A program made the position numbers and the translations under genes. Of a DNA stretch of 35,811 nucleotides, positions 15,106 through 15,660 are shown piece by piece. Position 1 is the first letter of the stretch; each line of letters starts with the position of its first letter. Origin of the DNA: Microcaldota archaeon (lineage in GTDB: Archaea; Micrarchaeota; Micrarchaeia; Micrarchaeales; Micrarchaeaceae); assembly GCA_027365735.1 (NCBI GenBank), contig DAHXLY010000023.1, positions 1 to 35,811 on the forward strand, read 5' to 3'. Below the pieces are notes generated by a model, which saw only the letters and a program-made list of their open reading frames with translations, did not search any database and was not told the origin of the DNA.

Positions 15106-15115
15106 TTTTTATATC
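15106..15115 (+). promoter_or_regulatory. TATA-like box for the L29-SUI1 pair
   Basis: TTTTTATATC lies about 48 nt before the inferred L29 start. A transcript starting near 15136 would contain the Shine-Dalgarno-like AAGGTG at 15146-15151. Confidence 0.5.
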
Positions 15116-15145
15116 TAAATCCACACTAAGTAATCACTTCTTAGT

Positions 15146-15151
15146 AAGGTG
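15146..15151 (+). promoter_or_regulatory. Shine-Dalgarno-like site deciding the L29 start
   Basis: AAGGTG lies 6 nt before the ATA codon at 15158, ideal spacing for that codon. It is only 2 nt from the out-of-frame TTG at 15154 and 30 nt from the first in-frame TTG at 15182. Confidence 0.45.
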
Positions 15152-15157
15152 TTTTGA

Positions 15158-15355
15158 ATAAAGAAAAGAGACATAAGGGCATTGCCTGATTCTGCTCTGA
15201 AAACGCGACTGGGCGAACTCCAGCTTGAGCTTGGCATCGAGAGGAGGAAGGTCGCCGCGACCGGGGTGGCGAGCAAGGTCACCAAGGCAAAGAACATAAA
15301 GAAGACCATCGCGAGGATACTTACGATCCTGAACGAGAGGGGTGTCAAACTCTAA
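15158..15355 (+). CDS. rpl29: 50S ribosomal protein L29, apparently starting at ATA
   Basis: This frame encodes 65 residues with the L29 pattern: KKRDIRALPDSALKTRL, then GELQLELGIER, then KAKNIKKTIARILTILNE, two antiparallel helices on the large subunit near the exit tunnel. An in-frame TGA lies at 15155-15157, directly before the ATA at 15158, and no ATG, GTG or TTG occurs in frame before TTG 15182, which would remove the conserved N-terminal KKRDIRA segment. A Shine-Dalgarno-like AAGGTG 6 nt before the ATA supports initiation there. Removing one A near 15157 would join TTG 15154 in frame (L/M-I-K-K-R-D), so an assembly error is the main alternative. The stop overlaps the SUI1 ATG (TAATG), the usual archaeal L29-SUI1 pairing. 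Confidence 0.82.
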   Translation: MKKRDIRALPDSALKTRLGELQLELGIERRKVAATGVASKVTKAKNIKKTIARILTILNERGVKL

Positions 15356-15660
15356 TGGCCGATACTTGCCCGAGATGTGGCCTTCCGCTGGAACTCTGCG
15401 TATGCAAGGTACTGGACCGCGAGACCGAGTCGAAGATCAAGGTCTTCCAGAAGAAGGCGAAGTTCGATAAGTACATGACCGTCATTGAGGGGGTGAGCCA
15501 GGATGAGATCGAGCGCACCGCAAAGGAATTGAAGCGCGCTCTCGCATGCGGCGGTACCGTAAGAGACGGGACAATCGAACTCCAAGGCGAACACAAGGGC
15601 GACGTCAAGAAGGTGCTCGCCAAGCTCGGCTTCAAGGAGTCGAACGTGGACATCGCTTAA
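15355..15660 (+). CDS. sui1: SUI1-family translation initiation factor aIF1
   Basis: A 101-residue eIF1/SUI1 protein. The N-terminus has a likely zinc site, Cys5-x2-Cys8 and Cys15-x-Cys17. The SUI1 fold follows: KYMTVIEGVSQDEIERTAKELKRALACGGTVRDGTIELQGEH and VKKVLAKLGF, with the conserved LACGGTV and IELQG stretches. The factor acts at start-codon selection on the 30S subunit. Its ATG overlaps the L29 stop. In many archaea this pair is inside the S10 ribosomal cluster, but here no other ribosomal gene of that cluster is adjacent. Confidence 0.93.
   Translation: MADTCPRCGLPLELCVCKVLDRETESKIKVFQKKAKFDKYMTVIEGVSQDEIERTAKELKRALACGGTVRDGTIELQGEHKGDVKKVLAKLGFKESNVDIA

Follow-up and report, generated by a model that had tools for sequence, protein, structure and literature searches.

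The sequences compared here argue that the gene for ribosomal protein L29 (uL29) in the window, the whole 35,811-nucleotide stretch of archaeal DNA that we analysed, starts at AUA, and that relatives keep AUA, AUU or AUC (AUH, where H is A, U or C) at the same position. The next gene, which overlaps the end of L29, encodes the initiation factor aIF1, and the best explanation of this arrangement, which we judge probable from the sequences, is that aIF1 holds down its own production by way of the poor start codon of L29, the cistron to which its translation would be coupled. The AUH start codon itself is well supported by sequence comparison; the feedback is what we infer from it, and we lean towards it with more modest confidence. 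It is the coupled aIF1 neighbour and the family-wide AUH that make the finding interesting, and neither was noticed in the sequence-only reading of the window, which had flagged the missing standard start codon.

The relevant features are collected in Table 1. The ATA that opens the L29 frame stands immediately 3' of an in-frame TGA, and from that TGA until the TTG at 15182 the frame holds no ATG, GTG or TTG; translated from ATA, the L29 N-terminus reads IKKRDIRALPDS... The Shine-Dalgarno sequence is separated from ATA by a spacer TTTTGA (15152-15157) whose last three bases are the in-frame TGA. A GTG within the Shine-Dalgarno sequence shares the L29 frame, but the TGA closes that frame before ATA, so a GTG-started L29 is impossible in the window genome. 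Further upstream, the TATA-like element leads us to expect a transcription start at about 15134-15140, and similar TATA-like matches lie 37-60 nt 5' of AUH in 63 of 75 relatives. The sequence-only reading had described this layout, with TGA at 15155, ATA at 15158, no standard codon before 15182 and AAGGTG 6 nt before ATA, and it stands on every point; it had overlooked the in-frame GTG inside the Shine-Dalgarno sequence.

Table 1. Features of the L29-aIF1 region (positions are those of the window).
Feature	Position	Strand	Basis or remark
TATA-like element TTTTTATAT	15106..15114	+	sequence; similar matches in relatives
Shine-Dalgarno AAGGTG (core GGTG 15148-15151)	15146..15151	+	GGTG in 73/73 AUH relatives; 16S 3' end of G020, GATCACCTC
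In-frame GTG shut by TGA	15149..15151	+	open in 62 relatives, a rival start there
In-frame TGA adjoining ATA	15155..15157	+	sequence
Probable AUA start codon of L29	15158..15160	+	AUH in 73/75 family genomes; onset of coding constraint
L29 (uL29) gene, 65 codons plus TAA (15353-15355)	15158..15355	+	PF00831, TIGR00012 and PDB uL29 matches
TTG, first standard in-frame codon, rejected as start	15182..15184	+	no GGTG 5'; position varies in relatives
GGTG within L29, 10 nt 5' of aIF1 ATG	15341..15344	+	sequence
aIF1 (SUI1 family) gene	15355..15660	+	PF01253, NF002096, PDB 4mo0; ATG overlaps L29 stop by one base

Both genes are readily identified. With M as its first residue, the L29 product scores 42.6 bits against PF00831 (cut-off 24.5) and 41.4 against TIGR00012 (cut-off 22.6). 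The aIF1 product scores 50.7 bits against PF01253 (cut-off 25.5) and 110.5 against NF002096 (cut-off 98), and it aligns with a solved archaeal aIF1 (PDB 4mo0) across its length at an E value of 1.9e-27. Each of seven family genomes carries exactly one SUI1 match. Downstream of aIF1, the window holds a Kae1/TsaD gene and a kinase gene.

We compared 75 L29 loci from the window's family of Micrarchaeota, spanning 27 genera. At the position of the window's ATA these genomes carry ATA (62), ATT (7), ATC (4) or ATG (2), so that, as at bacterial infC, a near-cognate start (AUU, AUC or AUA) is kept across the lineage, in 73 of 75 genomes. GGTG stands upstream in all 73, and this joint recurrence is, as a sequence pattern, far beyond chance. 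The two genera that have gone back to ATG are sister groups on the tree, and both have lost GGTG. Within AUH, the share of ATA (62/73) exceeds the Ile-codon background of 68%, a weak comparison that ignores relatedness. Comparison with related genomes, which the sequence-only reading had recommended, also settles the choice it left between ATA initiation and a sequence error. The window genome is a draft, 53% complete, and an error in sequencing or assembly could in principle hide a standard start, for instance a TTG at 15154 masked by an extra A near 15157; the AUH codons of 73/75 genomes, from many projects and 27 genera, refute that option, whose probability we take to be negligible. ATA initiation is the option that finds support, for the window genome and, with less certainty, for the family.

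How would a ribosome find such a codon? The distance from GGTG to AUH is 6 nt in 63 genomes, 5 nt in 9 and 7 nt in 1. In G020, a single-contig relative of 929 kb whose 16S 3' end is given in Table 1, GGTG stands 5, 6 and 7 nt before the first ATG in 72, 65 and 14 long ORFs, counts that exclude the first-start rule, as counting an in-frame GTG as the start would bias spacing 6. The GGTG core and the spacing of L29 thus equal those of ordinary ATG genes in G020 (5-7 nt). Across the two sister families of the order, GGTG accompanies AUH in 74/74 cases and ATG in 1/30, counts that are not independent of relatedness.

Reading along the L29 frame of the window, one first meets a standard start codon at TTG 15182, and initiation there would give an L29 shorter by eight residues. 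We rejected this start, which we hold to be highly improbable: no GGTG lies 5' of it, and its position is not conserved, the first downstream NTG falling anywhere from codon 2 to codon 36 across relatives or, in 14 genomes, nowhere in the first 40 codons. The residues that it would discard are also constrained. The ratio pN/pS is 1.17 in the leader and 1.58 over codons -2 and -1, and falls to 0.37 over codons +1 to +6, so that constraint at the amino-acid level, as estimated from the sequences, starts right after AUH and is absent before it. In the PDB, uL29 homologues from solved ribosomes align with L29 from residue 2.

The more serious competitor is the GTG at -9, which in 62 of the 73 AUH relatives is in frame and open. 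For most relatives one can argue that L29 truly starts there (M-x-x-I-K...), at an older ATG position, with AUH a conserved Ile codon that is forced into use as a start only in the window genome and a few others. The outgroup families give this some footing: in other families of the class (L190-L202) L29 starts three codons earlier, at this -9 position and mostly with ATG (ATG GCN ATH/GTN ...), and in the window's order it has apparently shifted downstream. Spacing 6 is also commoner in L29 (63/73) than in the other GGTG-led genes of G020, so that GTG may see some use in the open-frame relatives. Several features of the alignment nevertheless make the argument unlikely to hold. In 11 AUH genomes, the window included, the open in-frame GTG is unusable or missing; in 10 of these the frame carries no ATG, GTG or TTG anywhere from the upstream stop to AUH, and the remaining one (G011) has such a codon only 12 codons upstream. 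On a quick tree with many weak branches, the state of the frame has changed about nine separate times while AUH and GGTG were retained. Where the -9 codon is in frame it is GTG every time, never ATG or TTG, although GTG is rare among the GGTG-led starts of G020, and the G at -10, outside a GTG-started frame, is as invariant as the GTG. Codons -2 and -1 lack amino-acid constraint, and the residue aligned to AUH is only Ile in the family, whereas in outgroups it may be Ile, Leu, Val or Met. In the window itself the TGA excludes this start. We conclude that AUA is very probably the start of L29 in the window genome, and that AUH is likely the start in use across the family.

Is this arrangement peculiar to L29? 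Between G020 and a second single-contig relative (G105, 814 kb) we scanned 542 non-overlapping reciprocal ortholog pairs, with overlapping antisense shadow ORFs removed. L29 alone shows, in both genomes and close to the aligned start, an in-frame ATH with GGTG 5-7 nt ahead of it. Because the scan picks up chiefly genes led by GGTG (121 and 61 NTG examples), it could overlook AUH starts that use other signals. Among the 24 pairs that align before the first NTG in both genomes, read by eye, no second convincing AUH case was seen.

The gene that follows L29 gives this codon its possible meaning. The aIF1 gene begins with ATG in 75/75 genomes, at -1 to +5 nt from the first base of the L29 stop codon, so that stop and start overlap or nearly touch in every one; in the window they overlap as TAATG. 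SD-like 4-mers stand about 10-12 nt before the aIF1 ATG in most relatives, where the usual distance is 5-7 nt. This spacing and the overlap suit termination-reinitiation, as judged from sequence. The factor itself is reported to discriminate among start codons in Sulfolobus solfataricus and to destabilise the complex on a non-AUG mRNA (cited in PMC6237735). We carry this property over to Micrarchaeota by analogy with other archaea.

Drawing these together, we propose that L29 and aIF1 are transcribed as one two-gene message from a promoter of their own. GGTG would position the ribosome and L29 would initiate at AUA, or at AUU or AUC in certain relatives. Such a near-cognate codon is wrong at its third base alone, and initiation there would presumably use the Met-initiator tRNA. 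Translation of aIF1 from the overlapping second cistron would follow by translational coupling, and aIF1 would destabilise initiation complexes formed on non-canonical start codons. Abundant aIF1 would depress initiation at AUA and so lower both L29 and the coupled aIF1, whereas scarce aIF1 would let initiation at AUA rise, giving a homeostatic loop like that of IF3 at the AUU of infC. An AUH start on the first gene and, as the coupled second gene, the discriminating factor mean that the parts for an infC-like loop are present, and a 'wrong' L29 start beside the factor that polices start codons suggests that the cell probably senses and limits aIF1. Because AUH sits on L29 and not on aIF1, the feedback requires coupling, and the SD-like sequence of aIF1's own speaks against it.

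AUH might also be the start and do no more than keep the output of L29 and aIF1 low and constant, with no feedback by aIF1. Such fixed low expression would give the same sequence picture, since weak and regulated initiation look alike in sequence; what the sequences point to directly is the conservation of AUH, the linked Shine-Dalgarno sequence, the onset of constraint, the uniqueness in two genomes and the aIF1 overlap, while coupling and feedback are read from these. We still consider a fixed output rather unlikely: the sole such case in 542 ortholog pairs is coupled to the very factor that assesses start codons, and a fully conserved Shine-Dalgarno sequence next to a poor codon is an odd means to a low constant level.

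Control of a fidelity factor through a bad start signal has precedents outside archaea. The E. coli infC transcription unit also holds ribosomal protein genes. Bacterial infC starts with ATT or ATC and IF3 autoregulates through that codon (PMC5472188), and the L29-aIF1 pair resembles it in joining a start-codon fidelity factor to a near-cognate AUH codon conserved in the lineage. It differs in that the odd codon of infC is on IF3's own gene and here it is on the upstream L29, with a normal AUG on aIF1 in 75/75 genomes. IF3 and aIF1 are, moreover, different protein families (aIF1 being of the eIF1 family), and the similarity reported between them is only structural and concerns the C-terminal domain of IF3 (PMC7531240). 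By analogy, then, L29-aIF1 would work like the infC loop without being a member of it. Eukaryotic eIF1, whose autorepression works through a poor AUG context (PMC6237735), is a homologous factor (SUI1 family), and in both cases a poor initiation signal would report the factor's level; there, however, the signal is an AUG in poor context on its own gene, whereas here it is a non-AUG codon with a good Shine-Dalgarno sequence on the upstream cistron, and the kinship is through the factor, not the signal. Streptomyces sigR, with a GTC start repressed by IF3, likewise has a non-canonical, lineage-conserved start hidden by annotation, but its control targets a sigma factor and not a fidelity factor.

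The accepted archaeal start codons are AUG, GUG and UUG, and an AUH start conserved across a family would lengthen this list; gene finders would overlook such starts or annotate them wrongly. In the literature that we searched, which took in few subscription journals, we found no archaeal precedent for L29 with aIF1 or for archaeal AUA or AUU starts. The location of AUH just ahead of aIF1 suggests that in each of the three domains the fidelity factor is controlled via a start signal that it dislikes. On balance we favour the broader reading, from relatives in one archaeal class, that aIF1 autoregulates via a conserved AUH on a coupled upstream ribosomal-protein gene, that bacterial IF3, eukaryotic eIF1 and archaeal aIF1 came under feedback through a bad start signal independently of one another, and that AUA, AUU and AUC are genuine archaeal starts.

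A few further observations concern the leader and the reading of AUA. In the L29 leader, GGTG is followed by a pyrimidine in 61 of the 63 spacing-6 genomes, and the next two positions are mostly T (15152-15154 in the window). Among the spacing-6 GGTG-led ATG ORFs of G020, 47/65 have an in-frame stop between GTG and ATG, often TAA right after GTG, a count that perhaps reflects in part a repeated family or counting bias. The near-identical genomes L050 (G035) and L277 (G257) differ by one T in the run between GGTG and ATA, so that GTG is in frame in one and out of frame in the other; one of the two assemblies may contain a homopolymer error. In the sister family of the same order L29 has ATG in 28/33 and ATA in one. 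Two of its loci, L183 (G187) and L083 (G047), are possibly separate non-AUG cases: one has ATA, preceded at 5 nt by GGTG, and lacks any in-frame NTG, and the other has GGTGCTTCTT followed by ACG. A genetic code in which AUA means Met throughout was rejected as needless, AUA being the commonest internal Ile codon in L29 (329/487). Both G020 and G105 have a Met(CAU) tRNA that shows initiator-like G-C pairs and, in addition, a tRNA-Ile whose anticodon is UAU (G020 90558-90634, G105 251946-252021). Such a tRNA-Ile is unusual for archaea, where AUA is mostly decoded with a modified CAU anticodon.
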